Source of the DNA: Candidatus Competibacteraceae bacterium
GTDB lineage: Bacteria; Pseudomonadota; Gammaproteobacteria; Competibacterales; Competibacteraceae
Direction: 5' to 3'
Assembly (NCBI GenBank): GCA_007695245.1
Contig: REEE01000210.1
Location: 1-37,428 of the forward strand
Length of the DNA stretch: 37,428 nucleotides
The translations under genes and the position numbers were made by a program. Each line of letters begins with the position of its first letter. Within the stretch, counting starts at the first letter, position 1. Positions 2,996-36,152 of the stretch are shown here, piece by piece. The notes below the pieces were generated by a model, which made no database searches, was not told the origin of the DNA, and saw nothing but the letters and a program-made list of their open reading frames with translations.

Positions 2996-3021
2996 GGCCT
3001 CGCCTCTCGAAGGTAGAACAC

Positions 3022-3609
3022 CTATTGCCGCCCCCGCCCCGCGCCAGAATCCCCGGCTGCCGTTTCCCGGCCGCGGACCAGCACCAAAACCATCACCAAT
3101 CCGAACGACAATGTATCCCCCACCCGCACCGCCTCCGGGGTTCGCGGTCGCAACCGCCGCCCGTTGCGACAGGTTCCATAGGTGGAGCCCCGTCCTTCCG
3201 TCCCCACATCCTCCAGCACCCATCCATCATTCACCGGGCGCAATTCGGCATGGCGCCGCGATACGCTTTTACCCTCCCTCCCGCGGCCGCCGAGGTCCAA
3301 CACGGCGCGATCCGGGCCGGAGTCGGCGCCGATCGTGGTCCGAGCCGTCAGGGTCCACCGCGCGCCGGTGAACCGTCCCCGACGCTTTTCAGCGAGCACC
3401 AGGACGGTTGTGGTTGGGGCGGCGGGGCCGCCGGGCGAGCGTTCCGCGGCGTCCGTGCCGCCGACAACACCGTTGGCCGCGTCAGGAGCCGCGCCAGGAG
3501 CCGCGTCAGCCGGTTCTCCTTGTTGAAACAGCCATCCACACCTCGGACACGCCCCGTGGCGATCGGGTAGCACATTATGACGACAGGATGGGCATTCACG
3601 CTGGTTCAT
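3022..3609 (-). CDS. Zinc-ribbon FHA-domain protein
   Basis: The first gene of the leftward cassette, 195 residues from the ATG at 3609 (MNQRECPSC). A zinc ribbon (CPSC then CPRC within the first 25 residues) is followed by a Pro/Ala-rich linker to about residue 70 and an FHA domain: TIGADSG, KSVSRRHAEL, STYGTCRNGRRL, VGDTLSFG. The C-terminus is Gly/Arg-rich. Longer in-frame starts up to 3678 exist, but the added Arg-rich residues look non-coding. The vWA start follows 26 bases after the stop. The counterpart in the second cassette is at 22794-23297. Confidence 0.87.
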   Translation of the reverse strand: MNQRECPSCRHNVLPDRHGACPRCGWLFQQGEPADAAPGAAPDAANGVVGGTDAAERSPGGPAAPTTTVLVLAEKRRGRFTGARWTLTARTTIGADSGPDRAVLDLGGRGREGKSVSRRHAELRPVNDGWVLEDVGTEGRGSTYGTCRNGRRLRPRTPEAVRVGDTLSFGLVMVLVLVRGRETAAGDSGAGRGRQ

Positions 3610-3903
3610 GGTCGCACCCGCTCTTGAAATCGCCGATCTTGATACCATTGCACCCGCATGGCGGCGACGGCGTCGCACGGGGCCATGCCTGATGGATGGC
3701 CGGCTTCACGGTCCTCGCACTCGAATCCGCCGACCCTGGGACCAGGGCGCCAGCGTATCGGGCAACGCGACGCGCCGCAACAAACCATCGGCGGCGACGA
3801 TAGCCCTGAGACCTGCGTCAAACCCTTGGCTTCTCCTCCGCCAGACTGACGGTTCCACCGGCGGCGCGAGGGCCTTCAAGACCATAGCCCGCGGATCGCT
3901 TTG
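3610..3903. promoter_or_regulatory. Divergent intergenic region between cassette A and the plus-strand operon
   Basis: This gap separates leftward and rightward operons, so both promoters probably lie here. I see no gene. On the minus strand TGGTATCAA (3647-3639) is a weak extended -10 candidate about 30 bases before the FHA start, but no good -35 accompanies it. Assignment as a promoter region rests on the divergent gene layout. Confidence 0.4.
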
Positions 3904-5619
3904 ATGAACACACTCGATTTCGATACCTACACCCGGCTGACCGGGCCGCTGCTCGATTACAACCGGTCCTGGGCCAGAAACTACCTGTGGCTCTACCGCG
4001 CCAGCGTTTCGAGCGCGCTGCCGCGCATCGAGGAACATCCAGCCTTGAACGCACTGGCCGCGATCGAGCATACGGAAACCTTCCGGCATTTCCACGCCCG
4101 GCGCGGGCCATCCGCCGCGAGGCAGGCGCCGCGGCAGGCCAAACAGGCGCTCCTGCGGACCCTGCTTGAGACCTGGAAGCGCCTCGACGCGCCGACGCGC
4201 GCGCAGGCCACTGAAGCCCTGCGACAGGAACATCGGGACATTTTCGACCGCTACATTATCCCCTCGGTCCACGACCTTGCCAACGCGCAGGTTTCCCCCC
4301 TGACCGTGGTGACGAAGAAGATTCTCACCCCTCGCTTTCGGGAAGGCGCCCCGGGGGACCGCGAGGCGCCGCTGGCCAACCAGATCCGCAAGGCTGGCCT
4401 GATCTTTGCGCGATTTCTGCCGCTGAAGGATGGGTTGGATGAGGGGGCGACGCCCATCGGTTCGCCCCATTCGGCAGGCCCCTCCGACCAGAGCATCCGC
4501 CGAGCGAACCAACAAATCGTCGCCTGGTTGATCGACGTCGCCTACCGCGCCGTGGGTTTCGGTGAGATCACGGATGCAAAATTTCTCGCGACCCTGGGCT
4601 ACGAAATACTGCTGGTGGCTCTGCTGTCCCATTGGCGGGAACTCGACCCGGACGGGATGGAGCGGGACCGCAACCGGCTTGCCCAACATGCGCAAAACCG
4701 CACCCTGAACGCCTACGCTGGCGAAGATTCGCTGCTGGGGCCAGCGGTCCTCTTCTTCACCAGGACCACCAAGGAGATCGCCCGCGGCAACCACACTGAT
4801 TTATCCCATCACCGGATCGCCGCCGATTTATCGATGGTGCGACAATCCACCGCGGAAGCCATCGCCGGCGCCATCGACCGTCTCGCCGAACAAAGCGAGC
4901 GCCTCGCCAGCGACCCCAGCCACCCGGCGCACCGGGTCTTCCCGAGCCTGTTTTCCAAGGCCTGCCACCGGGCGCGGGGCCTGGACGAACCCATCGACAC
5001 GCACCAACCGGCGATCCTTGAGGACTTCAAGGATCGAATTCTCGACGATCTCGAGTGGAGCAAAAGCGCTGTCGATGACCCCCGGCTTGCCGCCCGGTTG
5101 CGCCAAGTGGAACGGGGGTATCAATCGTTCTCGCTCTATGGCGCGTCGCCGCATCCGCGGCTGGGCCGGACCGGCGGACGCCTGTATCCACGCTCCTGGC
5201 TCGCCTCCGCGACGACCGAGGGATCGCACCCGCGGTTCTTCCTGTGGGGCGCCGATTTTCACCAACAGGCGTGCGCCGCGGCGTGCGCGGTTCAAGGCGT
5301 CGATCCCGACCGTCCGCCGCCCCTCCCCAACGACTCGCCCGACCGCGACCCTCTCTCCCTGCCGGTTTGCTTTCTGACCCAACGCTACCTTTCCTCCGAG
5401 TCCGGGGACCTGCTCTTCACCTTGAGTCGGGTCGAGATGGACCAGTACGCCTCGGCGCTGAGTCGGGGCAAGCGCTTCCATTCCGAGCCGGTCGCGCACT
5501 GTCGAGCGATCGCCGAAAGACTCCATCTGGCCCACCAACGCCGGACCACCCTGATCGACCACCTGATTCCCCTCTTCGCCCACGGCGGAATCATTAACTC
5601 CAACGGTGAATGGCGATAA
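3904..5619 (+). CDS. Unrecognised 571-residue protein, first gene of the ternary-system operon
   Basis: I do not recognise this family. Starting at the ATG at 3904 (preceded by an in-frame TTG) it encodes 571 residues, mostly amphipathic helix by appearance, with no signal peptide, membrane segment or obvious catalytic motif. The region from about residue 300 to 370 looks like long helices. The last 150 residues hold more aromatic, strand-like segments such as PRFFLWGADFHQQA. It overlaps the next gene by a TAATG junction, so the two are probably translationally coupled. By position it may correspond to one of the bpX accessory domains named for MoxR-vWA-beta-propeller systems; that match is a guess that a profile search would settle. 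Confidence 0.75.
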   Translation: MNTLDFDTYTRLTGPLLDYNRSWARNYLWLYRASVSSALPRIEEHPALNALAAIEHTETFRHFHARRGPSAARQAPRQAKQALLRTLLETWKRLDAPTRAQATEALRQEHRDIFDRYIIPSVHDLANAQVSPLTVVTKKILTPRFREGAPGDREAPLANQIRKAGLIFARFLPLKDGLDEGATPIGSPHSAGPSDQSIRRANQQIVAWLIDVAYRAVGFGEITDAKFLATLGYEILLVALLSHWRELDPDGMERDRNRLAQHAQNRTLNAYAGEDSLLGPAVLFFTRTTKEIARGNHTDLSHHRIAADLSMVRQSTAEAIAGAIDRLAEQSERLASDPSHPAHRVFPSLFSKACHRARGLDEPIDTHQPAILEDFKDRILDDLEWSKSAVDDPRLAARLRQVERGYQSFSLYGASPHPRLGRTGGRLYPRSWLASATTEGSHPRFFLWGADFHQQACAAACAVQGVDPDRPPPLPNDSPDRDPLSLPVCFLTQRYLSSESGDLLFTLSRVEMDQYASALSRGKRFHSEPVAHCRAIAERLHLAHQRRTTLIDHLIPLFAHGGIINSNGEWR

Positions 5620-6725
5620 TGGAATACCGAAGCGTCCCCAACCGCGCGCTGCGGACTTTTGTCCTCGCCGACGGCGTTCTGGCCCAGGGTCAGGACCTTC
5701 CCGAAAGCTGGTTCCAATTCGCGCTGGATGCCTCCGGCGCCTCGCGCATTTCCCTGGCGTCCGCCCAGGACGAAATTCTGGAAGCCTGCGCGCGCGGCGA
5801 TCGGGCCGGATTTCAGCCCGTGGTGATCGTGCCCAACGCGGATTCCGACGCGCTGTTCCGCGTGCGGTACGCCACCGCCACCGGACCCGAGGTCGAATAC
5901 GCGCTGCGGGATGTCCAACCGCTCAACCTGCTCGATATCCTCGCCCGCCCGGACGATCGCGCGCTCGAAGCCTGGACGGCCTTGTGCCAGAACACGATCC
6001 CCCAGAGAACCCCCGTGTGGCCGGATTCGATGCATGCCCTGCGGGCCTTCGGCGAGCGCTGGCTCGCCTGGGTGGCGTTCTCGGGCGACGAACGCGCCCC
6101 GCGAACGACCCGGATTCCCCGCGCGCTGGAGCCCGACGAATTCGAGCCGCGCGGCGAACCGGACGGAACCGTGTATTTCACCCATCGAACCGCACCGTTC
6201 GCCATCTTGCGGCTGGCTCCGGAACAACGGCAACTCCTCCCGGAAGGGGCCCTGGTCGAGTTGCCGATGGGGCTGCGCTTCGAAGACTTCGCGGCCCGCG
6301 CGCCGGCACCCGGCGCTACGACCCCGTCCACCTCACGACCCTCGGCCCGGATCTTCGAGTTTCGACTGCCGGGAGCCTCGGCCGCCGGCGGCGCGGTTGA
6401 GGCCGGTCCGTGGGCCGAGGCCGCCGCGGATGACCTTCCCGCGCAACGCGTACTGGTCGACGAGTGGCTGGAAGAGCCGCGGCTTCGGTTCGTGGCGTCG
6501 ATCGCCGCGGATGGCCTGACCATCGACCTCCTGAGCGAGAACCCGAATCTCGCGGGCCGCGCCTATCGCTGCGGCTACGTCGGCCGGGACGCCGACGGCG
6601 AGCCCCCCGAGGTAGAGATCGCGCTGGCGCCGAATTTTCTGGATCCGGCACAGATCGAAGGCCACGGCGTCCTGCCCCTCAAACCCGGTGACGACCGGCT
6701 GCGGCTGAGGGAGATCGAAGAATGA
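5619..6725 (+). CDS. Unrecognised 368-residue protein, coupled to both neighbours
   Basis: The start is taken as the ATG at 5619, sharing one base with the preceding TAA; an ATG at 5610 would add three residues. The 368-residue product is soluble and acidic. It has alternating strand and helix segments in its first 130 residues, a Pro/Ala-rich spacer near 225-240 and a C-terminal segment of about 75 residues (VLVDEWLEEPRL onward). No known motif was found. Its end overlaps the next gene by ATGA, so genes at 3904, 5619 and 6722 form a tightly coupled trio and their products probably act together, possibly as a complex. Confidence 0.75.
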   Translation: MEYRSVPNRALRTFVLADGVLAQGQDLPESWFQFALDASGASRISLASAQDEILEACARGDRAGFQPVVIVPNADSDALFRVRYATATGPEVEYALRDVQPLNLLDILARPDDRALEAWTALCQNTIPQRTPVWPDSMHALRAFGERWLAWVAFSGDERAPRTTRIPRALEPDEFEPRGEPDGTVYFTHRTAPFAILRLAPEQRQLLPEGALVELPMGLRFEDFAARAPAPGATTPSTSRPSARIFEFRLPGASAAGGAVEAGPWAEAAADDLPAQRVLVDEWLEEPRLRFVASIAADGLTIDLLSENPNLAGRAYRCGYVGRDADGEPPEVEIALAPNFLDPAQIEGHGVLPLKPGDDRLRLREIEE

Positions 6726-7555
6726 CCGCGGCCGCCGCCCGGGAACCTCTCGATACGCTGGAGGACCTGTACCACCACCTTCGGGCCGAGCGCCGGAGCA
6801 ACCCGGGCCCGCCGGTGCGCAGCCGCGCGACTTCGGATCTGTTCCTGCGCCCGACCGGGGAGCAGGGCTGGTTCACCCTCGTGCGCGGCTCGCTCCTCCA
6901 CGGCGACCCCTTCGCCCAGGGAACGCTGGCGGACGCGGAATTCCGCCATCTCGGCGACCTTCCCACCGAGATACCGGGTCAGGGTTACTTCCGACTCTCG
7001 CTGGCAATCCTCCGGTGGCTGGCCCGGACCTTCCCGCGCGAGACCCCGGCGATGGATCGGGAATCCTGGCTGCGCGGCGAGGGGCGGCCGGCCGCATTGC
7101 GAGACTTGGCCAAGGCTTCCCCCCTGCCCGCCGGCGCCGCGGTGGATCTCGCCCGGTTTCTGCTGCGAGAACCGGAAGCCGACCCGGAGCGGCCCCCCGC
7201 TCCCGACACCCGCGAGATCGCACTGCCCATCGCGCTCTGGTCGCCGAACCAGGAAACGATGGGGCGGATCGCCATGCTGAGGCTTTGGGCGTCGGCGGCG
7301 TGGCTCCCCCAGGATACGGGCCGGCCCTACCCAGGCTTGCCGAGCGCCTTTCTCGCGACGAGCCCAAAATTCCAGGACGCCTTGAACGACGCCTGGGCCT
7401 TCGCCGCGCGCGAGTCTCCCGCGCTCGCGGACCTGGACGTGCGCTGGACCTTGCAGGTCGCCCCCCATGCGACCACGCTCCGCCAAGCCTCGGTGGACGG
7501 CGCCTCGGCCGGGGCGGCATTCGCCGCCGCCCTGCTCCAATTGGCGCCCTCGTAA
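6722..7555 (+). CDS. Protein ending in the catalytic-serine half of a Lon-like (S16) protease fold
   Basis: A 277-residue protein starting at an ATGA overlap with the preceding gene. Residues 1-200 are unrecognised. Its last 55 residues resemble the first half of the Lon proteolytic domain: a helix (FQDALNDAWAFAAR), a strand DVRWTLQV, then VDGASAGAAFAAALLQL. In E. coli Lon the motif DGPSAG carries nucleophile Ser679; here the matching serine is S262. The chain stops five residues after that helix, before the strand and helix that normally bring the catalytic lysine. The missing half, with its lysine, is found at the N-terminus of the 14244-18839 product. No Lon remnant follows the stop codon here. 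The Lon resemblance is by eye but the motif is good; the subunit pairing is inference. Confidence 0.78.
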   Translation: MTAAAAREPLDTLEDLYHHLRAERRSNPGPPVRSRATSDLFLRPTGEQGWFTLVRGSLLHGDPFAQGTLADAEFRHLGDLPTEIPGQGYFRLSLAILRWLARTFPRETPAMDRESWLRGEGRPAALRDLAKASPLPAGAAVDLARFLLREPEADPERPPAPDTREIALPIALWSPNQETMGRIAMLRLWASAAWLPQDTGRPYPGLPSAFLATSPKFQDALNDAWAFAARESPALADLDVRWTLQVAPHATTLRQASVDGASAGAAFAAALLQLAPS

Positions 7556-7685
7556 GCCCCGCGGCGGTCCGGGAGCCGCCGCCCGATAGCGCGGATTCCC
7601 GCGCCACCAGGTTTCGCGCGTCATCCCGGATACTTCGAGGCACGGCGCTCGCCGTCCCATCCACCCCAGGGAGGTCCAAAACATC

Positions 7686-7919
7686 ATGACTGAAATCGCC
7701 CTTTCCCGGCCGGCGCAAGCCACCCGCGCCACGCCCGACCCCGCGCGCGCCACCGAAATCCGTCCTTCAAGGTCTGGGTCCACGCCCCCCCCGAGCGAGT
7801 GCCGCGTGCAGGTTCCCTTCCTGCGCGCGATCTTCACCGCGGTCGAGCGGGAAGCGCGCCAGCATCCCCGGCGCGCGGCGCGCCCGCGCCGGGCGCGCGC
7901 GGAATACGGTCTGGACTGA
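7686..7919 (+). CDS. Small basic protein upstream of the E1-like gene
   Basis: This 77-residue ORF has a strong Shine-Dalgarno (AGGGAGG about 11 bases before the ATG) and ends 15 bases before the ThiF-like gene, so I think it is expressed. The first 40 residues are low-complexity (Ala, Pro, Ser, Thr, Arg). Then comes a short hydrophobic helix, VPFLRAIFTAVEREA, and an Arg-rich tail ending EYGLD. It lacks a C-terminal Gly-Gly and any beta-grasp pattern, so I do not call it ubiquitin-like. Function unknown. It could be a binding partner or regulator of the adjacent E1-like enzyme. Confidence 0.6.
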   Translation: MTEIALSRPAQATRATPDPARATEIRPSRSGSTPPPSECRVQVPFLRAIFTAVEREARQHPRRAARPRRARAEYGLD

Positions 7920-7934
7920 TTCACGGACTCGACG

Positions 7935-9203
7935 ATGACCGACGAATCTTCGGCATCCCCGGCACCTCCGCCGGACCGCTGGCTGACCATCGACCTCGCG
8001 CGCCCCGCCCTGGAACGGGCCGTACGCCGCCTGGCCCGCGGCGCGCGCGAGGTCGAACTCAGCGCCGGAACCGCCCGAGACGTCGACGCATTACACGTGC
8101 TGGTCGCCGATGACCGCAAGCCAGCCCTCACCACCGGTCGCCTGCGCCTCACCCTCCGGCGTCGGGACGCGGACGCCGGCGCCGCCGACGCGGCGAAACG
8201 CGACCCGATTACCTGTTACATCGATGACCGGGGCGAACTCTTTACTCGCCATCCTGAGGTGGCCCGGATTCGGGTGATCGGAGCCGGCCTGCATCAAACC
8301 CCTCCGGCGAATTCCGACGCGTCGAATGCTTCCAACCGGTGGTCCCGGATCGCCGGCGCGCTGGGTGCCACGATCCACGCACGGCTGCGGGCGACTCGCT
8401 TCGCCGTCGTCGGTTGCGGCCGCACCGGCAGCCTGGTCGCCTCGACGCTCGCCCGCATGGGCGTCGCCGACCTGACCCTGATCGATCCGGATGGAGTGGA
8501 ACTCCACAACCTCGACGCCATGGACGGCGTGCATTACACGGACCTCGGTCGGACCAAGGTCCACGCCCTGGCCGACCACCTGCGCCTGTTCGCCTGCGGC
8601 GTGCCCCATCCGCTCCCCCAGGCGGTCACCACCAGCACCGCGATCGCCGCGCTGCGCGCCACGGATTTCGTCTGCTGCTGCGTCGACGAGGCCATCGCCC
8701 GGCTCGCCACCACCGCGCTGGCCACGCTCTTCCTGAAGCCTCTGCTCGACATTGGCGTGGGGATTCGCCGGACCGACGGCCGGCTGGACCGGGCGGCCGA
8801 CGTGCGTCTCATCCTCCCCGGCGAACGCCGCTGCCTGTTCTGTTTCGGCGGCATCGCGGAGCGCGAGCGGATGCTTCCTCTGATCGGCGGCGAACCCGCC
8901 CCGGCGGACTGGCGGGCAAGACGCGCGGGCAGCCTGCGTTCGCTCAATCAGATCGCGGCTCATTTGGGCGTGGGCATGATCGAGGACCTCGCGGCGGAGC
9001 GCCTGGACCATTCCCAGTGGTTGCGTCTTCGTTATGCGGGAGCGCTCCCCGGCATCGAGCCGCTGACCGCCGACCCCGATCCCGAATGCCCGATCTGCGC
9101 CCTGGCCGGCAACGGCGACGCCGGCCTGCTCCACTTCTCGACGACGATGCGCGCCGCGGTGCGCAGGGAAACACGCATCCACCCCCCGGACCGAGAGGGA
9201 TGA
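7935..9203 (+). CDS. ThiF/MoeB/E1-like adenylyltransferase
   Basis: 422 residues. The first 140 are a divergent domain with no JAB (HxH) motif. A ThiF-type Rossmann domain follows: VVGCGRTGS (glycine motif from G160), LTLIDPDGVELHNL, a conserved lysine in GRTKV, and VCCCVDEAIAR, which holds the aspartate that usually coordinates ATP-magnesium. Two CxxC pairs (C300/C303 in CLFC, C385/C388 in CPIC) should bind structural zinc. Family members adenylate the C-terminal glycine of a ubiquitin-like protein or a peptide. The segment after the NL of HNL reads DAMDG, where MoeB has QRQ, so the arginine normally placed there is absent. No E2 or Gly-Gly partner is visible nearby. The substrate is unknown. 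Confidence 0.88.
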   Translation: MTDESSASPAPPPDRWLTIDLARPALERAVRRLARGAREVELSAGTARDVDALHVLVADDRKPALTTGRLRLTLRRRDADAGAADAAKRDPITCYIDDRGELFTRHPEVARIRVIGAGLHQTPPANSDASNASNRWSRIAGALGATIHARLRATRFAVVGCGRTGSLVASTLARMGVADLTLIDPDGVELHNLDAMDGVHYTDLGRTKVHALADHLRLFACGVPHPLPQAVTTSTAIAALRATDFVCCCVDEAIARLATTALATLFLKPLLDIGVGIRRTDGRLDRAADVRLILPGERRCLFCFGGIAERERMLPLIGGEPAPADWRARRAGSLRSLNQIAAHLGVGMIEDLAAERLDHSQWLRLRYAGALPGIEPLTADPDPECPICALAGNGDAGLLHFSTTMRAAVRRETRIHPPDREG

Positions 9204-9398
9204 TCCCGTGCGCCTGGGTTCAGTCGCCTCGATCGCGCGCGACGTTGCTGGATCGGGCGCGGCCTTAGGCCCTCACCCTGCGAAAACCCTGGCCTGAGAA
9301 CAGGCGCAGACTGTGCGCCAGAAACGGCTGACGTCGTCCGGGAACGCCGCAACGCCGGTCAGATTCCCTGCTTGAATCCCGATCCTTGAGGAAGCGCC

Positions 9399-12230
9399 AT
9401 GAACGGCCCAAATTTTTTCCAGCACGAGCCCGCGAATCCGTCGGGCGCCTGCCACTTCACCGCGGAAGGTATCGTGGCGCCCATCCGTATCGCCCTGAAG
9501 AGCCCCATCTCCACTTTGGCTTATGCGATGGCGGCGCGGCTGGAACAGGATCTGGCGGCGCGGGTGACGGTTCATCTGGAAGATTCCGGTTTTGGGGTAT
9601 CCCACCGACCGGAGTTGCCGGCCGCGGTTGTGTCTCGCCTGCTTTCATCGCTGAACCCCTTTCGACTCGAGGTGGAACATCCTTTGCCACCAGACACCGA
9701 AGCCGCAAGCGATATGATCGTGCGTCTGGGATGGGGTGGCGGCGCCCCATTGCCTTCGATCCGCTGGTTTTCGCCGACCCCCGACTTTGGCCGTTCGCTT
9801 CTACAGCCCTTGGCCGATCTCGGGTTCAACACCCTGTTTCAAGGAAAAATGTGTTATGACTTCAACATAATGGTTTTCGGAAACCACCTGCATCCCTTTA
9901 CTCGTGGCATCCTTCCCTGGGTGCTGCGCCAACAGGGTATCGAGGTCGCGGTCTTTTCCGAAGACATGCGGGACGACCATGAAGTCGCGCTGATCCTCGC
10001 CGACCCCACCGCAACCTCGGCCGACGATCTGTTCGATCTGGAATTGCGTTGCGATGACCCATCCGTTGCCCTGGACTGGGCCGATCGGGGTTTGGCGGGC
10101 TATCGAACTGCTTCCGGACGCAAGTTCCCCAAGCCCATGTTTCTTCTCGATCTGGGTCCATTGGCGATCCCCCGGTTTCATTTAGCCCGGCTTGCGCTGG
10201 AGCGCGCGTTATTGGAGCGGCTGACGGCGCTGGGCGTCGACCCACACGCCCACCCGTTACGGATTCGCGCAAAGAAAAAAAAGGCCCTGGAACCGTACCG
10301 GGCGCGGGTGGTCGCGCATCTCCCGATCGCCGCCTGGAAGGCCGGTCGGTTGCGACCCTATGCCAAAGAGCATCCCGAACGCTTCGATGTCATCGTCCGC
10401 ACCGACGAACCGGCAAGCTGCGCCGACTTCGTTGCCGAATTACGGGCCAATGGTTACCGGGTGATCGAAGAGCCGATCGCCTCGGTCGCGCAGGCCCAAT
10501 CGGGGTTCGCGATCGCCTGGGGGAGCGCCGCGCGTTCCGCACGACACCAGATGCAGATCAAGCACCTGTCGTTAGCGCTCGACAAGAAGATTCGCGCGCC
10601 CTTCAGCCTCAAGCACCAGCAAGATGCGGACTCTGGACCGAACGTCCACATTCACCTGCCTTTCGCCCTGGCCGCCTCGGGGCGCCTGGATCATCTGGCT
10701 GGAAAGGGTTTTGATCTAAGAATCCATTTTTTCAAAAGCAAGGACGGCTGGGAGGAGTTGATCGCGGCCTTGCGGGCAATGGGCTTCAATCAGACGGAAG
10801 TCAGGGAGGGGTTCGAGCCCGACCTGCCCAGCAGCGGCAACAATCATCTTGAATTCGGCGGCGCCCCATTGCGTTTGGTGGAATACATTCAGTCCCTGGT
10901 CCAAAAAGAAGGCATTCCGGATCTGATCCTCGATAAACGCTGGCCCGATATGGATAATGACCTGTGGGTTTTCCTGCGCGAGCATCCCAAAATGGTGGAG
11001 GCCAGTTCCGTCGCCACTCAGGGGGCAATTCAGGGGACGAATCGGTGGACGACCGATGACGCCGCGGCCACGCTGGCCGCTTCCGATCTTTGGGTGGAAC
11101 CCGAGGACTGGAATGCCGTCGTTCCCCTGAGACTCGTCGATGGCTCCACCGTGACCTTGGGCGAGTGGGCGCTCCCGCGACGCAGCGACGTGCCCGCCGC
11201 TTGCCCGTGGGCGCCCGACCCGCCGGCGGACGGCTACTGCCTGGATGCGCCGACGCTGGCAACCCTGGAATTTCTCGCCGGCGCGGTGGCCTTGCGCGAA
11301 CCGGCCTTGTTGGAAGGCTATACCGCGACGAGCAAAACCAGCGCGGTTTTATATCTTGCCGCCTTGCTGGGGCAACCCGTGCTGCGTTTGAATCTCAACG
11401 GCATGACCGATACCCAGGAACTGATCGGCAAACCCTGGCCCGCCGAAGGGGGCGGATGGCGCTGGCAGGATGGCGCGGCGCCAATCGCCTTGCGCGAGGG
11501 GTATTGGCTCTTGCTGGACGAAGTCAATCTCGCGCCACCCCAGATTCTGGAGCGTTTGAATTCGCTATTGGAACGGCAACCCACCCTGATGATGAGCGAG
11601 CACGATGGACGCCGGATCGCGGGGACCGCGGCGCATCCGGCGTTCCGGGTATTTGCGACCATGAATCCGGCTGAATTTTCCGGGCGCAACCTGCTGTCGC
11701 CGGCCTGGCGGGATCGGTTTCTGGCCTATCGACACTGCCCGGTCGCGGGGGAACGTGAATACTGGGAGCTGTTGACCTACCTGATCTACGGCGAGCAGCC
11801 CGCCGTGCGCTGGCGACAAGCCTGGGTTCAGGCGGAGGCCTCGGCATCCCCGCCGTTTGCCGACCTGCGGGCTCTGCCCCAACTGCGTTGGCGCTTGCGC
11901 AACTGGGCGCGATTCCATGCCTCCATGACCCATCTCACCGGGCAGGACGGCGCGCGGTCCGCCCAATTAGCGGTGCGCCGCAAGGAAAAGCCGGTGTTCA
12001 GTCGTCGCGGTCTGGGGGCGGCCCTGGGGTATTTGCAGCGCTGCATCCAGGATAACCCGGCCTGGACCGCGGCCCCCGAGGCCCTGTTTGCTCGCCTGCT
12101 GGAGCGTTACTACCTCAGTCGGATGGCCAGCGCCGAAGATCGGGACACGGTTCGGCAACTGGCGGTGGCGACCGAACTGGGGGCGGTGGCGATGGTGGCC
12201 CCGGAAACCGCCATGGAGGTTCCGGGCTGA
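9399..12230 (+). CDS. MoxR-type AAA+ ATPase with a large N-terminal region
   Basis: A 943-residue protein with a GAGGA ribosome site 6 bases before its ATG. Residues 1-600 are an uncharacterised mixed region with some similarly built segments. From about 605 a AAA_5/MoxR-type ATPase begins. Walker A reads GYTATSKT (lysine K646), so the glycine usually found before the lysine is a serine. Walker B is intact: LLLDEVNLAP with D707 and E708. Sensor 1 (VFATMNP) and the arginine-finger region (LSPAWRDRF) are present. MoxR ATPases act as chaperones with vWA partners, and the next gene encodes one. The family fits the MoxR component of MoxR-vWA-beta-propeller systems. Whether the altered Walker A still hydrolyses ATP is open. 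Confidence 0.88.
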   Translation: MNGPNFFQHEPANPSGACHFTAEGIVAPIRIALKSPISTLAYAMAARLEQDLAARVTVHLEDSGFGVSHRPELPAAVVSRLLSSLNPFRLEVEHPLPPDTEAASDMIVRLGWGGGAPLPSIRWFSPTPDFGRSLLQPLADLGFNTLFQGKMCYDFNIMVFGNHLHPFTRGILPWVLRQQGIEVAVFSEDMRDDHEVALILADPTATSADDLFDLELRCDDPSVALDWADRGLAGYRTASGRKFPKPMFLLDLGPLAIPRFHLARLALERALLERLTALGVDPHAHPLRIRAKKKKALEPYRARVVAHLPIAAWKAGRLRPYAKEHPERFDVIVRTDEPASCADFVAELRANGYRVIEEPIASVAQAQSGFAIAWGSAARSARHQMQIKHLSLALDKKIRAPFSLKHQQDADSGPNVHIHLPFALAASGRLDHLAGKGFDLRIHFFKSKDGWEELIAALRAMGFNQTEVREGFEPDLPSSGNNHLEFGGAPLRLVEYIQSLVQKEGIPDLILDKRWPDMDNDLWVFLREHPKMVEASSVATQGAIQGTNRWTTDDAAATLAASDLWVEPEDWNAVVPLRLVDGSTVTLGEWALPRRSDVPAACPWAPDPPADGYCLDAPTLATLEFLAGAVALREPALLEGYTATSKTSAVLYLAALLGQPVLRLNLNGMTDTQELIGKPWPAEGGGWRWQDGAAPIALREGYWLLLDEVNLAPPQILERLNSLLERQPTLMMSEHDGRRIAGTAAHPAFRVFATMNPAEFSGRNLLSPAWRDRFLAYRHCPVAGEREYWELLTYLIYGEQPAVRWRQAWVQAEASASPPFADLRALPQLRWRLRNWARFHASMTHLTGQDGARSAQLAVRRKEKPVFSRRGLGAALGYLQRCIQDNPAWTAAPEALFARLLERYYLSRMASAEDRDTVRQLAVATELGAVAMVAPETAMEVPG

Positions 12231-12289
12231 GCGGAAGGCGTCGCGATCCGCTCCCCCCGGAGAGCTCTCGACCGCGGAGGTATTCAGAG

Positions 12290-14158
12290 ATGCAACGAGA
12301 CCCAGGCCAACCCATGGAAAATTCCCGCCGACCTTCTCCCCTGTCCGGGCGGCGGGCGACGCAACGCCTTTTGGCCCTGGCCGCCGGCCTGGCGCAAGAC
12401 TCCGGGATCCGGATTGCGGTGCGGGATGCGCCAACCTGGTCTTGGGATCCGCAACAGCACGTCCTGGTCGTCGCCCGGGATACGCTGGATCAGCTGGGAC
12501 CCGCGCAATGCGCGGGTCTGGTGGCTCATGAAATCGGGCATTGCCTGGTCTCGCGCTATCATCGGTTCGATCGCTCCGAGTGGCCCACCTGGCTGGGTTC
12601 CGAGCTGATGAACGCCCTGGAGGAATCCCGCGCCGAGGGCTTTATCAGCGCCCGTTTCCCAGGGGTTCGCGCGTGGCTGGAATCGTTGAACGAGCGGGAG
12701 GATCCGGCGTTTTCGCCCGATCTACCCTGGATTGCGCTGTTTGCCCTCGCCTGCGTGGTCGAGCCGCGCCATCACTGGGTGCCCTTGCCCCATCCGTTGC
12801 CGGCGGAGGTGCAAGACGCTCTCACCGCCACCCGGACCGCCCGGCGCCGCTACATGCGGACCGTGCCGAAGCCGGACTGGTCCCTCGATGACCGAGTCCC
12901 GATCCCCCACCACGACCTCCCCGCGGACCCGCCAGCGAACGCACCCACCACGACCCCGCGGGAGCGGGTCGTGCTGGCCCACGCCTGGCAAGCCTATCTC
13001 CTGGCCCGGCGGACGATCTTGCCGGTGGCCATGCGTCTCTATCAGCAAGATGTGGATCATCTCGCGCGGGGACTGGCTTCGAATCCGACCTGGATTCCGC
13101 TGGCCCAGCAGGCGTTGGCTCTGGGGATTCAGCCCCTGATCTGGACGATCGTCCAGTTGGGCTTGCGGCAGGGACGCGCCACCCCGGCACCACAACCGGC
13201 GGCCGATGCCTTGATGCGCTTGAGCGTCGCTTTGCTCGAGCGTTCCACCATTACCGACCCGCCGGCGGTCGCGACGACGCCCGGCTCCAGCCCGCCGGCG
13301 GCCGCCCGAGCGACCGTGGCCCCTCGCCCGTCCCCGGTCCCTGAATCGGGCTTCGCGCCTGCCACCGGATACCCCGGTCCGATGGATTACCGCGAGCTCC
13401 TGGATCGGCATCTGGTCCATATCGACCACCTGGTCCACCGGATCGAGGCCATCCTCGAACCCCAGCGCAACCCGGCGCTCCAGGCGGGGTTTGCCTCCGG
13501 AACTCACCTGAATCTGCGCCATGCCATGGCCTGTGAGTTCGATCCACGCGAATACACCCGTTTGTGGATGCGGCGGTCCCTGCCACAGGCTCATGATCTG
13601 ACGGCGTTTTTGTTGGTGGATCTGTCCGGAAGCATGGCCCGCGCGAACCGAATCGAGGCCGCGACGGTCGGCTTGCTGATCCTGGCCGAAGTGCTGGAGC
13701 GGATTCCCAACGTTCGTTGGGCCGCGGCGGGATTTCAAGATGAAATCATCCCCATCGCGGACTTCCATGAGGGGCTGACGGCCGCCGTACAGCGGCGTTT
13801 CGAACACCTGCGCGGTGAGGTCCACGGCAGGAATCCCGGAGGCCACAACCAGCCCTCATACAATGACGATGGCCCCGCGGTACGGCATGCCACCCGCCGC
13901 CTGCTCGAACGCCCGTCCACCCGCCATTTACTGATCGCGATCAGCGACGGCCTCCCCGAAGGACGGCATTCCACCGAGGAGGATTTGCGTCAGGCGATCC
14001 GGGAAGCCAGCCAGGCGGACGTCCAGGTGGTCGGCGTGGGAATCGGGGAACACACGGATCACGTGGCCAACTTCTACCCGCATCATCTGGCCAGGGTGCC
14101 CATCGACGATTTCCCAAGGCGAATGGCCGCCATGATCGAGCGTTTGCTCCTGCCCTAG
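12290..14158 (+). CDS. CobT-like vWA protein with N-terminal HExxH metalloprotease-like domain
   Basis: 622 residues; GGAGG lies 9 bases before the ATG at 12290. Near the N-terminus, GLVAHEIGHCL provides a zincin-type HEIGH (80-84), followed by NALEESRAE, where a glutamate could be the third zinc ligand. This pairing is common in CobT-like vWA proteins. The middle, about 200-360, is helical with a Pro/Ala-rich linker near 330. The C-terminal vWA domain has a full MIDAS: VDLSGSM with D444, S446 and S448, then AISDGLPEG and VVGVGIGE. vWA proteins of this class are obligate partners of MoxR-type ATPases, and the ATPase gene is directly upstream. It could clip or hold a substrate remodelled by the ATPase; peptidase activity is not shown by sequence alone. 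Confidence 0.9.
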   Translation: MQRDPGQPMENSRRPSPLSGRRATQRLLALAAGLAQDSGIRIAVRDAPTWSWDPQQHVLVVARDTLDQLGPAQCAGLVAHEIGHCLVSRYHRFDRSEWPTWLGSELMNALEESRAEGFISARFPGVRAWLESLNEREDPAFSPDLPWIALFALACVVEPRHHWVPLPHPLPAEVQDALTATRTARRRYMRTVPKPDWSLDDRVPIPHHDLPADPPANAPTTTPRERVVLAHAWQAYLLARRTILPVAMRLYQQDVDHLARGLASNPTWIPLAQQALALGIQPLIWTIVQLGLRQGRATPAPQPAADALMRLSVALLERSTITDPPAVATTPGSSPPAAARATVAPRPSPVPESGFAPATGYPGPMDYRELLDRHLVHIDHLVHRIEAILEPQRNPALQAGFASGTHLNLRHAMACEFDPREYTRLWMRRSLPQAHDLTAFLLVDLSGSMARANRIEAATVGLLILAEVLERIPNVRWAAAGFQDEIIPIADFHEGLTAAVQRRFEHLRGEVHGRNPGGHNQPSYNDDGPAVRHATRRLLERPSTRHLLIAISDGLPEGRHSTEEDLRQAIREASQADVQVVGVGIGEHTDHVANFYPHHLARVPIDDFPRRMAAMIERLLLP

Positions 14159-14243
14159 ACGACCTTCCTGGTTCCAGGACTTGCGCTCCTGAACGCAGGC
14201 CTGGCACCAGAATTTCAAGGAACCACAGACCCGGTACAGCCCT

Positions 14244-17200
14244 GTGAAGTCCATGAATCTCACCCAGGTGCTGATCTCGGCATCCATCCATCCCGATGGA
14301 ACACTCGGGCGGGTGGAGGGATTAGGCGAGAAACTCAATGCGCTCATGGGAACCCGCTGGCCCGCCCGGATCCACACCCTGGTCGTGGCGAGACAACAAG
14401 CCTTGGGCTCCCAGTGGAATCCCTGGCTGCACGATCGGCTGGGGATTCGCCTCATCGAAGCGGAAACCCTGGATGAGGCCCTGGCTCTGCTCCAACGGCG
14501 CCTCGGCGAGTTGGAAGCGGCGTCGCCGTGGGGTTCCCCGGCGAACGCCATCCCGGTTCCACCGCCGGCCCGCGCGATCAATCGACCATGGTTGAAACAG
14601 TCGTTGCGGGCCGCCCAGCGGACCTTGATCCAACGCGCCCCCAAAGGCGAACTGGCCCGAGGATATATCTGGGTGCTGGGCGCCGCCGGTTCGGGAAAAA
14701 GCGCGCTGTTGGCGGATTTCGTGACCGAGGAGAGACGACGCGGCCTGGAGTCTCGCTGCGCGGCGTTTCATTTCATCCGACGCAAGCATCTGGCGGCGGA
14801 CGACCCGGCGCGCTTCTTACCAGAGTTGACGCGGCAACTGTACGTCTTCCGGGGCCTGGAGCCTCCTCCATACGCGGTGAATCTGGATCCCAAGCCGATG
14901 TTCGAACGCGGCCTGGCCGAGGCGGCTCGTGGCCTGGAGCGCCCGGTGGTCATCGTCATCGATGCCCTGGACGAATCGTTTGGTGAAGGGGGCCGGTTCG
15001 CGCGGGTCGGAGCGAACACCGTTTTACCAGACCCGGCGGCCTTGCCTCCAGGAATCATTCTTTTGGTCGGCTCCCGTCTGGACGAGCATGATCTTGCCGC
15101 GTCTTCTCCAGGCCCCATGGTAGAGGTGCGCATCGGCGGGCCGCAAGCCGAGCAGGATATTGTCCGTTACATCGAAAAACTCAACCAACAATTGGCCCTG
15201 GCCCTCGAACCCGAACTGCGCCGGGCCATCGCCCGGCGGGTTCGAGATAATTTCATGTTGGTCACCGAATTATTCCGGCGAGCCGGCGCCGCCAGCGCCG
15301 CCGAGGTTGAGTCCTGGTATCGGGATGTTTGTCTCTGGCGCAGCGATCCGGAACGGATTCCCTCCGATCCGATCCGCTATATGGAGATGGAATGGACGAG
15401 GCTGGTCGAGGCCTGTTGGTCCCAGACCCCAGCGGAGACGCGTTTCGAGGCCGAACGATGGCTGTTGGCTGTATTGGGGCTCGTCTGCTTCGCGCGCCGG
15501 GCGCTGTCCCCAGATGAACTGGAGGCCATCGTCGATACCCTGCGGGAACCCGAGTCCCCCGTGCCTGGATGCTCTCGACCCGTGCGCCTGGGCGGCCGAC
15601 GCGACAATCTTCGCGGTCTGGATCGCGCGCTTTATCTGGTGCGCCTGGCGCGGGCCTTTCTTGAGGTGGATGCGCCAGATCGCGGGATCAGCGCGCGTAA
15701 TCCGACCTTTGAGGAGTTTATCGCCGACAAATTGGCGGCGCGGTCCTGGGGCATGGATTTCCATCAGATCCTCGCCTGGGGAGCCAGTTTCCATTCTCAC
15801 CCACACATGGGCCGCCTGTTGCGGGCCTACGGTTTGCAGGCGCTGCCCTGGCATCTGTTCCACGCCGGCCAGGAGCGATGTGCGTTGCGGGTACTTTGTC
15901 AGCCGGAGTACTTGCAGGCGGCCTACCATCATTATGGTTCTCAAACCCTAACGCTCTGGGAAGAATTGTTCGCCGACTTCGAGCGATGCTTGACCGGTAC
16001 ACCGCACGGGCGACAAGCGGCGGTGTTGTGGCGTTGTCTGGCGCACCATGACGCCGATTTCGCGCTTGGCAACCTGCGCGTGGATGTGACTTTGTACAAT
16101 GACTTGGGTGGCGTACCCGAGGCGGCCCACTCTTGGCGTCAGAAACCCGATCGTCCAACCGGCAGGCCGGCCATCCTCCGCGCGCTTCCCGCGCAACCCG
16201 GGGTCTTTGTACGCCGGCGCTTTTTCCCCGACAAGTTTATTCCCGACCGGTCCGGAATTCCTTGGATCCTGGAAAAGCGCTTTCCCACCAACCGGGAGGT
16301 CGCGCTGCTCGCGCTGTCCCGTTGCGGGCGCTGGATCGCCGTGCCGGAGCAGCGTCACATCGTCCTGCTGCGGCAGGACCCCGCGGGTCGGACGTGGCTG
16401 GAAGCGACCCGTATTCCGAATCTTGGCGATGATTGCCACACTCGTGTGTCGCTGTCGGCGCCCAATCCCGCGAACGGGCAAGTGGATTTGGTCGTCGCGG
16501 GTCCGCGGGCCTTGGCGGTCTGGACCTTGGTGGAAGCGGGTCCGCCCATCTGGCGTTGCTCGGTGGAGAGCCCCACGACGCGACCCTCGCTGCTGGCCTT
16601 GTCACCGCGGTGCCGGGATGGAGGCTATTGGGTGGCGCTGCGGGATGAAAATCACGCCGTTTGGTTGACGCGGGTGGATGCGCATCAGGATGATCCACAA
16701 CCGCCTTGGCGCTGGTCCGTGGCGGCCGCCGAGGTCCGCGATCTGATCTTTTCCGAATGCGATGCGTGGGGACGGTTTTTCATGGCCGTGGCCCGATTCG
16801 ATCGCCTTCTGTCCGTGTCGCCGTTCGCGGCGTCGGGCGACATCGGGGAACCGATTGTTTTGCGCGAACCGGATCCGGGCTGTTCCAGAGTCGATAAATT
16901 CAGGTTTTCGGCACCGGACGCGCGGGGGCGTTTTTGGTTGGCGGGCGTCGGGATGGGGGGGCCGAGCCTCTGGCGTCTTACTGGGCCGAGCGCTGGCGCC
17001 GCCCCGCTGGTAGAGCCTCACGCGGTTCCCCTCGAAGGCCAATCGTGGTTGGGGCACTGGGACGTCCGCATATCGCCGCGCACGGAGACCGACGCGGTAT
17101 GGATGGCTATTTTCAATCCATTCGGAACCGCGGCCATCGGGCGCTTGGAGCCCGACGGGCGCATGCAGTCCTGGGAATGGGACCATTTTTCGGAGACCTG

Positions 17201-18839
17201 GCGACACGTTGCGTTCTCCGGACATCGGCGCGAGTCGGAGCTGCTCCTGGCGGTGGCCCTGGACAGCAGTCTCGTGGTGGCTCACGTCGCGCCCGACGGA
17301 CCGGGCTGCTGCCTGTTATCCGATCTGGGCGGGATTCTGGACATCGCCATGACCCCGCCGGAGCCATCCGGCCGGGTCCGTCTGCTGGCTTTCTCGGAAG
17401 ATCGGTCTTTGGGCGTTGTTTCCAATCAAGATTTAGCGTTCGAGCGCACCAGCATGAATCCGTGCTTACGCGCGCGGATCCAGCAGTCGCGGCTCGTGCC
17501 AGAGGGGGGTGGGCACGATCCCGCATCCATAAGACCATTACGCATGGTGACGACCGACTGGGACGGAGAACTCTCCGCGTGGGAATTCGCGGCGGATGCC
17601 GCCGCGCCGGCGCGGCGCATTACCCTGGTCCGCCGCGAGCCGGGCTGGTCCACGATGATGGCGCTGGTCTCCGGCCCGAACCTGTGGACCGCGGTCGTGG
17701 GGCTTTCCCGCGATGGGCAAGTTTTTTGCTTGTCCTTTGGTGCGGATGCGGCCCGGTATCGCGTGGAAAAACCGGTGTTGACCCGGCGGATCGATGCCAG
17801 CGGATCGATTCGCGCTTTGTTCTGTTCGCCCTGGATCGCGAATTTCGGTGTCTGGTGTTGCATTGTTTACGCCGACGGCGGCGGAGAGTTGTTTGCAATC
17901 CGGCCCGATGGCGCCGTCCGGCAAAGCCGGCGAATCAAAACCCCGGTGCTGCGGGAAGCCGAGCATTTCGCGTTCTCCCAGCCGGACGCGCGCGGCAATG
18001 TGTGGCTGGTGGGTATTCTCCCGAACAGGAGCGTGCTTCTCTGGCGATTGCGACCCGACGGGCGGATCAGCGATAGGGTCACTGCGTCGATCCCGACTTC
18101 CCAGCATCTGGGCGATCTTTTTGCCCTGCGGCATCACTTGCGGAGCGTCTTCGGCGATCCTTCCGCGGATTCGGAGTCCGCCGCCCTGTCCGTTGGTTTT
18201 ACCCAGGGGAGGCCCGGATTGGATCAGGTTTGGCTCTACGGTTTTTTTCATCGCCATGTGGCCTTGCTGCGCATCGGCGACACCGGTCCAGTCGGAGCAT
18301 TCGAACAGTTGCACGCCTTGCGGGACTGGCGAGGCGATCGGGTGTTCGCGCTGGAAGACGCGCGTGGCAACCTGTGGTTGCTGGCCAACGGCTCGGATGA
18401 CCCGCGCATGGTTCGCGTGCGGCCTTCGGGGCCACCATCCTGCGCGGTGCGGCTTTCGGGGGCGCGTGGTGCGCTGCGTCATGCGATTCTTTGGGAGCCC
18501 CCGTCCACGGGTGAGCTCTGGTTTGCTGGCGCGACGAAACAAGGGGTAAGCATTTGGCGGGTCGATCCCGCGGCGCTGCCGCTGGATCGAGAAGAGGTGG
18601 CCGTGGCCCCCTGGAGCGAGATCGACCTGAGTTTGACGGGAGAACGCATTCACGGCCTGCGTTGGGACCAGGACGGCGAACGCCTGTCCGTGGCGGTCGA
18701 GCACAATGGCCGCGCGGGACTCATCCGCCTGCATCGGATCGGAGGATCTGATCCGCCCGATGCGCCGGACAGCGAAGGCGTGGCGCGGCGCAACCCATCC
18801 TCGCCTCGCCAGCGGCCCCCGCGGCGCCATTCCTCCTGA
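14244..18839 (+). CDS. Lon-like lysine half + STAND NTPase + beta-propeller protein
   Basis: 1531 residues from the GTG at 14244; an ATG at 14253 is an equal alternative, and neither has a clear ribosome site. Residues 5-95 resemble the second half of a Lon protease domain: QVLISASIHPDGTLGRV, EGLGEKLNAL, IHTLVVARQQ, then TLDEALALL. K30 of GLGEK matches the E. coli Lon catalytic Lys722, but no serine half is present upstream. A STAND-type NTPase follows: Walker A GAAGSGKS at 146-153, Walker B VVIVIDALDES with D240, and a helical region to about 660. The remaining 850 residues are repeating strands such as GNVWLVG...LLWRL and GELWFAG...SIWRV, a beta-propeller probably of two rings. The propeller should sense a ligand and the NTPase should switch state. 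Confidence 0.88.
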   Translation: MKSMNLTQVLISASIHPDGTLGRVEGLGEKLNALMGTRWPARIHTLVVARQQALGSQWNPWLHDRLGIRLIEAETLDEALALLQRRLGELEAASPWGSPANAIPVPPPARAINRPWLKQSLRAAQRTLIQRAPKGELARGYIWVLGAAGSGKSALLADFVTEERRRGLESRCAAFHFIRRKHLAADDPARFLPELTRQLYVFRGLEPPPYAVNLDPKPMFERGLAEAARGLERPVVIVIDALDESFGEGGRFARVGANTVLPDPAALPPGIILLVGSRLDEHDLAASSPGPMVEVRIGGPQAEQDIVRYIEKLNQQLALALEPELRRAIARRVRDNFMLVTELFRRAGAASAAEVESWYRDVCLWRSDPERIPSDPIRYMEMEWTRLVEACWSQTPAETRFEAERWLLAVLGLVCFARRALSPDELEAIVDTLREPESPVPGCSRPVRLGGRRDNLRGLDRALYLVRLARAFLEVDAPDRGISARNPTFEEFIADKLAARSWGMDFHQILAWGASFHSHPHMGRLLRAYGLQALPWHLFHAGQERCALRVLCQPEYLQAAYHHYGSQTLTLWEELFADFERCLTGTPHGRQAAVLWRCLAHHDADFALGNLRVDVTLYNDLGGVPEAAHSWRQKPDRPTGRPAILRALPAQPGVFVRRRFFPDKFIPDRSGIPWILEKRFPTNREVALLALSRCGRWIAVPEQRHIVLLRQDPAGRTWLEATRIPNLGDDCHTRVSLSAPNPANGQVDLVVAGPRALAVWTLVEAGPPIWRCSVESPTTRPSLLALSPRCRDGGYWVALRDENHAVWLTRVDAHQDDPQPPWRWSVAAAEVRDLIFSECDAWGRFFMAVARFDRLLSVSPFAASGDIGEPIVLREPDPGCSRVDKFRFSAPDARGRFWLAGVGMGGPSLWRLTGPSAGAAPLVEPHAVPLEGQSWLGHWDVRISPRTETDAVWMAIFNPFGTAAIGRLEPDGRMQSWEWDHFSETWRHVAFSGHRRESELLLAVALDSSLVVAHVAPDGPGCCLLSDLGGILDIAMTPPEPSGRVRLLAFSEDRSLGVVSNQDLAFERTSMNPCLRARIQQSRLVPEGGGHDPASIRPLRMVTTDWDGELSAWEFAADAAAPARRITLVRREPGWSTMMALVSGPNLWTAVVGLSRDGQVFCLSFGADAARYRVEKPVLTRRIDASGSIRALFCSPWIANFGVWCCIVYADGGGELFAIRPDGAVRQSRRIKTPVLREAEHFAFSQPDARGNVWLVGILPNRSVLLWRLRPDGRISDRVTASIPTSQHLGDLFALRHHLRSVFGDPSADSESAALSVGFTQGRPGLDQVWLYGFFHRHVALLRIGDTGPVGAFEQLHALRDWRGDRVFALEDARGNLWLLANGSDDPRMVRVRPSGPPSCAVRLSGARGALRHAILWEPPSTGELWFAGATKQGVSIWRVDPAALPLDREEVAVAPWSEIDLSLTGERIHGLRWDQDGERLSVAVEHNGRAGLIRLHRIGGSDPPDAPDSEGVARRNPSSPRQRPPRRHSS

Positions 18840-18906
18840 ACGCGGGTGTTCGTGGCGCGTACCTCACGCCTGGGGCGAACGAGGAAGATAACGAGAGGAG
18901 GCATCC

Positions 18907-20958
18907 ATGATGATCTGTCCGTCCTGCGCGCAGGAAAATCTCGATGACGCGCCGCGTTGCGTCAAGTGCGCCTGGCCGTTCGCGGCCGAGGCGATCGCTT
19001 ATCCGGCGGCCCTGCCGGTGGGAACGGTGCTGCAAGACGGGCGCTACACGGTCCACGAACCGCTGGGGCGGGGCGGGTTTGCCTACACCTACGCCGGCTG
19101 GAGCCGCAACTTCAACCGTCCGGTGGCGATCAAGGAGCTGTTTCCGAACGACGACCGGCTCTGCGCGCGGGCTTCCGGAACGCGGCAGGTGCGGAGCGGA
19201 ACGCGGGGTGCGGGTTTTGGGGAGAGCCGGCGGCAATTTTTGGCGGAGGGGCGCCGCTTGTTGGGGTTGCGACACGAAGGAATCGTCGGGGTATTAGACT
19301 GCTTTGAAGAACACGGAACGGCGTACATCGTCATGCAACGGGTGGCGGGCGAGCCGCTGAGCGCCCGGATCGCGCGGGAAGGACCGCCGCCGGAGGCCGA
19401 GGCGGTCGGGATGGCCCGGCGCTTGGCGGGAGCTTTGAAGTATCTGCACGGGAAAGGGCTACTCCACCGGGATCTGACCCCGGACAACGTGCTGCTGGAG
19501 GAATCGGGCACGCCGGTGTTGATCGACTTTGGACTGGCGCGGGAATACCTGGCGCGGGAGGGCCTGTCGACCTCGGTGGGTTTCACCGACGGCTATGCGC
19601 CGCTGGAACAATACCAATCCGATGGCGAGTGGGGTCCGTTCACCGACCTGTACGGTCTGGGGGCGGTGCTGTACTTTATGGTGACAGGAACGCACCCACC
19701 GAGCGCGATAGACCTGATGTCGGGCACGCCGTTGCGGTTTCCGGACGGGATCAGCGAATCGTTGCGGGAGGCGGTGACGGCGGCGATGCAACCGCGGCCC
19801 GAGGGTCGGGTGCGGGACACCGATGCGTGGCTGGCGCTGCTGGATGGCGAGGCCCGGCGGGCCGAGCGCGAGCGGCGGGCGCGCGAGGAGGCGCGACGCC
19901 AGGCGGAACAGGCGCGTCTCCAGGCGGAGATCGAGCAACAAGCCCGAGACGAGCGCGAGCGGCGGGCGCGCGAGGAGGCGCGACGCCAGCAAGAGCGACA
20001 GCGCGAACAGGCTCGAGAGCTGGCGCGAAAGCTGCGCCGGGAAGAGCGGCTGCGGGCGTTGCGGGACTTCTGGGTTTATAAAATGAACAAGGGCCTGGTG
20101 CTCGTTGCGTGGGTCCCTTCTTTCTTAGCCGTTGTGTTATTCATGGTTTCCATATTGCAGACCGAGCCTGGCTTTGGAATGCAAATCGAGCGCAGCCACA
20201 TCGATTCATTTCCGATACGCATCATCCTGCTCGGATTATTGCTCATCCTCAGCGGGTGGGGAATCATCCGCTTGTGTTTTTTCTTTCGCAACGAAGTTAA
20301 TATTATTGTTTTTTTATTGGTTTTTGGGTTAATTTTTTTTGGGTGGTTAGCAACTTATTTGTTTGACTATTTTTTTGATGCGCGGCGATTTGCTATTATC
20401 GAATTTTCCGTCGCTACGTTTCCTATTTTTTTCTTTATATTTTTCTGTGCGTTTTTTTTACCTGTAAAGATTTTTATTCTTGAGCAAGTGGCGGATGAGG
20501 CGATCACTCCGTTATTACTTGTCGCCGCCGTATCTGCTTTCAGCTTAGGCTATTTACTGTATATGTTTTCATACTCTCAAGGCGAGGATCACTTCAAGGC
20601 AACGCATGGCTCCGCTCAGGAAAGCGTCCAACCTTCTCCTCGGTCCGCGGCACAACAGGAACGTTCGGCGACCGTCCCACGTCCCGAACGCACGGCGGCG
20701 GGCACCTCCCGAACGGCTCCGGCTTCGACCTGTTGCAGGTTATGGGTGAAAGCCACGCCAGCGGATGCGCGAGTGCGGATCATGAGCATCGTTCCGGTTT
20801 ATCGAGATGGGATCGCGGTCGAGCCGGGCCGCCACCGGATTCGCGTGGAGCGGGATGGTTACGTGACCTACGACCGATGGGTGGAGATCGATCAGGCCGA
20901 ACAGGTGGTAACCGTAGACCTGCCAAAGAGCGCCCCGGCGCGCGGGTCGCGCCAGTGA
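18907..20958 (+). CDS. Membrane Ser/Thr kinase with zinc ribbon, coiled coil and PEGA domain
   Basis: 683 residues, with AGGAGG 6 bases before an ATGATG start. Order: zinc ribbon (C4, C7, C18, C21), kinase domain about 40-310 (GRGGFAYTY, VAIKELFP, HRDLTPDN at 187-194, IDFGLA), Arg/Glu coiled coil about 315-385, five predicted membrane segments about 395-555, a Pro/Ser/Arg linker, and a C-terminal PEGA-like domain (RLWVKATPADARVRI to YVTYDRWVEI). The catalytic loop has Thr where HRDxK has Lys, a variant I know from other bacterial kinases. The gene starts 68 bases after the STAND-propeller gene, so it may be the membrane-tied kinase output or input of that operon. The membrane part is strikingly AT-rich compared with the rest. 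Confidence 0.93.
   Translation: MMICPSCAQENLDDAPRCVKCAWPFAAEAIAYPAALPVGTVLQDGRYTVHEPLGRGGFAYTYAGWSRNFNRPVAIKELFPNDDRLCARASGTRQVRSGTRGAGFGESRRQFLAEGRRLLGLRHEGIVGVLDCFEEHGTAYIVMQRVAGEPLSARIAREGPPPEAEAVGMARRLAGALKYLHGKGLLHRDLTPDNVLLEESGTPVLIDFGLAREYLAREGLSTSVGFTDGYAPLEQYQSDGEWGPFTDLYGLGAVLYFMVTGTHPPSAIDLMSGTPLRFPDGISESLREAVTAAMQPRPEGRVRDTDAWLALLDGEARRAERERRAREEARRQAEQARLQAEIEQQARDERERRAREEARRQQERQREQARELARKLRREERLRALRDFWVYKMNKGLVLVAWVPSFLAVVLFMVSILQTEPGFGMQIERSHIDSFPIRIILLGLLLILSGWGIIRLCFFFRNEVNIIVFLLVFGLIFFGWLATYLFDYFFDARRFAIIEFSVATFPIFFFIFFCAFFLPVKIFILEQVADEAITPLLLVAAVSAFSLGYLLYMFSYSQGEDHFKATHGSAQESVQPSPRSAAQQERSATVPRPERTAAGTSRTAPASTCCRLWVKATPADARVRIMSIVPVYRDGIAVEPGRHRIRVERDGYVTYDRWVEIDQAEQVVTVDLPKSAPARGSRQ
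19864..19989 (+). repeat. Exact 39-base direct repeat inside the kinase coiled coil
   Basis: Positions 19864-19902 and 19951-19989 are identical, 87 bases apart and in frame, encoding ERERRAREEARRQ twice. It lies in the Arg/Glu-rich coiled coil between kinase and membrane domains, so copy number could vary by recombination and change linker length. Confidence 0.9.
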
Positions 20959-27053: not shown

Positions 27054-27063
27054 GGTTGGATCC

Positions 27064-36115: not shown

Positions 36116-36152
36116 CTTGTAGTCATCCAATTAGAGAAACAGAAATAACCTA

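Follow-up and report, generated by a model that had tools for sequence, protein, structure and literature searches.

The two S16 half-domains of the gene run

The DNA analysed here (hereafter the window) is the stretch of 37,428 nucleotides of contig REEE01000210.1 from a Candidatus Competibacteraceae bacterium, whose assembly (4.08 Mb) comprises 389 contigs. A run of genes on the plus strand, from about 3901 to 20958, includes the genes of P0001 (6722..7555, 277 residues) and P0002 (14244..18839, 1531 residues), which are 6.7 kb apart on the common strand, and the genes between them. As judged from the sequence, the two products are probably the two chains of a single S16 (Lon-type) peptidase domain, which would form a predicted Ser-Lys site. 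No terminator-like sites were found in the gaps flanking either half.

P0001 has no Pfam domain. Its residues 161-277 (7202..7552, plus strand) represent the N-terminal half of the S16 domain, which terminates past the serine helix. The C-terminus of the protein is RQASVDGASAGAAFAAALLQLAPS, directly followed by the stop codon; the Ser of its DGASAG motif is residue 262 (codon 7505..7507, plus strand), which aligns with the Lon Ser679 position, and D259 (7496..7498, plus strand) aligns with the Asp676 position. The stop lies three residues beyond the helix that comes after VDGASAGAA. A 4-base ATGA overlap couples the P0001 start to the preceding gene on the plus strand (5610..6725), which encodes a protein of 371 residues.

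P0002 (plus strand) is composed of the S16 C-terminal half, a NACHT/STAND ATPase and a long C-terminal region, which probably contains propeller-like repeats. The S16 half covers residues ~4-90 (14253..14513, plus strand). The N-terminus is VKSMNLTQVLISASIHPDGTLGRVEGLGEK, with the Lys at residue 30 (codon 14331..14333, plus strand; Lon Lys722 position in the alignment), and the opening stretch of the protein is TQVLISASIHPDGTLGRVEGLGEKL. Residue S12 (14277..14279, plus strand) aligns with the Lon Thr704 position. The possible starts are GTG at 14244 and ATG at 14253; an in-frame TGA at 14190-14192 bounds any upstream extension. Ahead of the ATPase there is half an S16 domain and no complete effector domain. 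The ATPase was recognized in Pfam as NPHP3_N (E=5e-8, above its cut-off) and as NACHT (2e-4, below its cut-off). The AAA+ module of Lon is therefore absent in cis from both proteins.

S16 profiles were constructed for the comparison. The first contained 13 domains from fetched loci, 11 of which had been fetched via the joined sequence, so that it is biased; the second contained 18 Lon/LonH domains from a PF05362 search, selected independently of P0001 and P0002. The window was read in all six frames, and every open frame of at least 60 residues was scored. With the 13-sequence profile, P0001 ranked first (20.9 bits, positions 61-114) and P0002 ranked second (6.5 bits); the N-terminal 110 residues of P0002 alone scored 16.2 bits (positions 124-149 and 190-218). 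The two proteins thus cover neighbouring stretches of the profile without overlap; none of the other frames gave a convincing match. The best of 3,000 shuffles per half scored 7.1 bits for P0001 and 10.0 bits for P0002. The halves joined in their native order scored 46.9 bits. The reverse join gave 35.5 bits, and shuffles did not exceed 10 bits. With the independent 18-domain profile, the join scored 12.9 bits, the wrong order 4.3 bits, and the top of 9,000 shuffles 4.4 bits. Moreover, the matches listed in a tblastn search with the joined sequence include archaeal and TM6 S16 domains, to which it aligned without a break at the joint. The tblastn candidates were preselected partly by the serine motif; the collection scan used designed motif patterns and was steered with alignments holding artificial variant rows (A1-A7), which serve no other claim. 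Both halves also show codon use of the coding type. These data support homology of both segments with a single S16 domain, in which they complement each other.

An original prediction, made from the sequence without database searches, had stated that P0001 ends with the Lon serine motif and its following helix, and that P0002 begins with the next strand and helix, with S262 and K30 at the Ser679 and Lys722 positions. The first statement agrees with the profile positions and the structure model (see below), and the second with the profile, the residue spacing and the model. It had also stated that neither gene contains the other half and that no remnant flanks them; in agreement with this, no remnant of the missing half was found 3' of P0001 or 5' of P0002 in any forward frame or in the profile scan of the window.

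Position of the cut, catalytic residues and structure models

In all S16 domains that were measured, the catalytic Ser and Lys were exactly 43 residues apart. The joined spacing of P0001 and P0002 is 42 residues if P0002 starts at the ATG (14253), or 45 if it starts at the GTG (14244); P0001 continues for 15 residues beyond S262, and 27 (ATG) or 30 (GTG) residues lead up to K30 in P0002. The domain is thus cut in the loop that succeeds the serine helix, and practically no residues have been lost or gained. The S16 dyad, a Ser in DGxSAG and a Lys in GxxEK, is present in trans as S262 and K30. All four catalytic-site positions examined (D259, S262, S12 and K30) have suitable residues. S12 is located 18 residues ahead of K30, at the position of Thr704 in E. 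coli Lon, and the Ser replaces the helper Thr.

Each half was also modelled alone. The model of P0002 residues 4-118 had a predicted local distance difference test score (pLDDT) of 80.6, and among solved structures it best matched 5e7s, a LonA protease domain (probability 1.00, E 0.013). For P0001 residues 161-277 (pLDDT 72.4), the top solved matches were Lon protease domains (probability 0.97, E ~0.01); BrxL structures were also among the matches. The half models show compatibility with the Lon fold and are not independent proof of it.

Several observations weigh against a single S16 domain in two chains. By ordinary standards, the S16 similarity of the halves is weak: neither Pfam nor NCBIfam finds an S16 domain in P0001, P0002 or the join, none of which reaches the PF05362 cut-off, and a PDB sequence search with the joined domain returned no Lon match. 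The home-made S16 profiles do match. A narrow LonA-only profile, which is too specific, ranks the join first with 8.6 bits. S16 sequences were present in the modelling alignments, so the models are not independent evidence. The P0002 start has no good ribosome-binding site upstream, and the G+C content at third codon positions (GC3) is unequal in the two halves (0.89 vs 0.75). Finally, no orthologue of either protein was found (see below).

Neighbouring genes and relatives

The run opens with a gene for a protein of 572 residues (3901..5619, plus strand), which shares 10 bases with the next frame, the gene coupled to P0001. Downstream of P0001, a small coding-like open frame (7686..7919, plus strand; 77 residues, Arg/Pro-rich, GGAGG upstream) lies just 5' of the gene for a ThiF/E1-like adenylyltransferase (7935..9203, plus strand; PF00899, E=2e-23; PADLOC E1-E2 models) with a CxxC...CxxC C-terminus. 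This is followed by a MoxR/CobS-like AAA+ ATPase (9399..12230, plus strand; PF07728, E=1e-18) with an N-terminal region of about 580 residues, and by a CobT-like VWA protein (12290..14158, plus strand; PF11775) with an N-terminal HEIGH motif. A Ser/Thr protein kinase with a PEGA domain (18907..20958, plus strand; Pfam) closes the run. GC3 is 0.79-0.86 over 3901-9203 and 0.70-0.77 over 9399-20958, with the shift after the E1-like gene.

The run is flanked on the minus strand (1694-3678 and 21478-27368) by signalling genes: VWA, FHA, a PP2C-type phosphatase, another VWA, and a fusion of a Ser/Thr kinase with a formylglycine-generating-enzyme-like domain. ParA- and ParB-like genes, recognized by reading the sequence only, are located near the window end (34543-36130, minus strand); they could be a sign of mobile DNA or of DNA derived from a plasmid.

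The queries in the search for orthologues of P0001 and P0002 were both proteins, their join and the N-terminus of MoxR. In about 770 genomes, and in plasmid and phage records, none was found; the order was represented by 40 genomes, the class by 369 and the phylum by 398. These searches yielded only relatives of the MoxR-VWA pair. One match (genome G009) was rejected as chance, with internal stops, a weak score and no S16 motif; another (G259) covers only the STAND region of P0002. In the genome of the bacterium itself, three ATPases (L003, L004 and L005) also have Lon-like domains at the C-terminus, which lack the DGPSAG motif and read as BrxL-like.

Two genomes from the same family have full-length relatives of both MoxR-VWA proteins. 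In G028 (L040, 16066-19092) the pair stands alone, with a MoxR protein 35% identical over 619 residues and a VWA protein 37% identical; in G038 (L047, 12696-17559) the pair is followed by a PARG-like macro-domain gene. Since its company varies in this way, the pair looks like a module with changing partners, and like a modular system in its own right. In the window (9399-14158), the pair sits between the two Lon halves. The MoxR N-terminus is long and repeat-like in all three pairs. The zincin-like HEIGH motif of the VWA protein (~12527-12544) is HEAGH in both relatives.

Interpretation and comparison with known systems

In the proposed assembly, P0001 would contribute the first strands, the next helix and the serine helix, and P0002 would contribute the remaining strands and helices, including the lysine. 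The cut in the loop past the serine helix would allow the chains to pair without missing residues, which would unite S262, K30 and S12. Folding of the two chains together is suggested by their complementarity, and cleavage of peptide bonds by the retained catalytic positions. The predicted single S16 site is therefore partly supported: homology, complementarity, the near-lossless cut and the four catalytic positions argue for it, and from these we infer joint folding and proteolysis.

A further and more tentative proposal is a conditional protease, in which each half would be inactive without the other. The S16 site would be built when the NACHT/propeller protein senses its signal, and putting the site together from two proteins would control proteolysis in a defence-type system. 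The P0002 half has the position of effectors in STAND proteins, ahead of a NACHT/STAND ATPase whose long further region is probably a sensor, and might therefore replace the effector; this step is the more speculative one. Sensing and oligomerisation would then gate the docking of P0001, and the MoxR-VWA pair and the E1-like enzyme could act as remodelling or modifying partners. An obligate complex would be predicted, as would an activity that requires one residue from each gene. If the chains do assemble, this would be the first known Lon-type enzyme with an active site formed only when two proteins meet. A natural split between the catalytic Ser and Lys would be a new way of controlling such an enzyme, and would offer a route into the study of how bacterial conflict systems use sensors to drive proteolysis.

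The halves could also pair into one Lon-type domain that acts as a structural or docking module, tying P0001 to the STAND protein without proteolysis. Lon-like domains that are not proteases do occur in defence proteins such as BrxL (PMC10164562), and BrxL structures were matched by the P0001 model. However, S262, K30 and D259 are kept here, and the residue at the Thr704 position still has a hydroxyl group, whereas BrxL has lost the motif; as the dyad is retained, a non-catalytic domain seems less likely.

It is still less probable that the halves are non-functional or decaying remnants of a single ancestral gene (P0001, Lon and STAND), broken in the loop by the ThiF-MoxR-VWA block. A near-lossless cut is what an insertion into one gene would give; the MoxR-VWA pair is found elsewhere without Lon halves, as a movable module would be; and there is no orthologue to show long-term conservation. 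Nevertheless, neither frame is interrupted, codon use in both is of the coding type, the stop and the start coincide with the domain joint, the catalytic residues are kept, and no repeats flank the presumed insert. The GC3 difference between the halves is also weak evidence against a very recent break. Read-through, frameshift and insertion repeats were examined as explanations of the split, and found no support.

That each half folds alone or with another partner, so that the two never meet, is very improbable: each could be modelled alone with moderate confidence (pLDDT 81 and 72), but each is an open half-domain without its core partner, and the window contains no other matching half.

A two-chain S16 domain, as favoured here, can be compared with several known systems. 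The LonA, LonB and LonC enzymes and the small archaeal-type S16 peptidases (MEROPS S16) have the serine-helix and lysine motifs and the order of strands and helices in common with P0001 and P0002. All Lons were described as single-chain multidomain proteins (PMC9569914), whereas the domain here is encoded by two genes 6.7 kb apart, in two chains. The original prediction knew of no split Lon of this sort, and likewise none was found in the open-access literature. The Lon-like domain of RadA serves without protease function. The BrxL and RadA domains have the same fold, but P0001 and P0002 keep the Ser and Lys, whereas BrxL has no obviously conserved Lon active-site motif (PMC10164562).

The MoxR-vWA ternary conflict systems contain a MoxR AAA+ gene beside a vWA gene, together with STAND-type or beta-propeller proteins, and are patchily distributed; the FtsH class of these systems also carries E1/Ubl genes (Kaur et al. 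2020, PMC7159879). The side-by-side MoxR AAA+ and vWA genes are present here too, and the E1-like enzyme likewise resembles a component of these systems. Lon is not mentioned in that paper (0 occurrences), and no Pfam, NCBIfam or PADLOC match to a VMAP, inactive STAND, double-FtsH or propeller third component was found among the window proteins; P0002 has the suspected propeller-like region. A Lon-type protease effector of a defence system, gated by a sensor domain, is represented by CalpL, the CRISPR-associated SAVED-Lon protein (PMC11417357 and PMC12751052). CalpL carries its SAVED sensor on the same chain, whereas P0001 and P0002 have a split catalytic domain and a linked NACHT/STAND ATPase.

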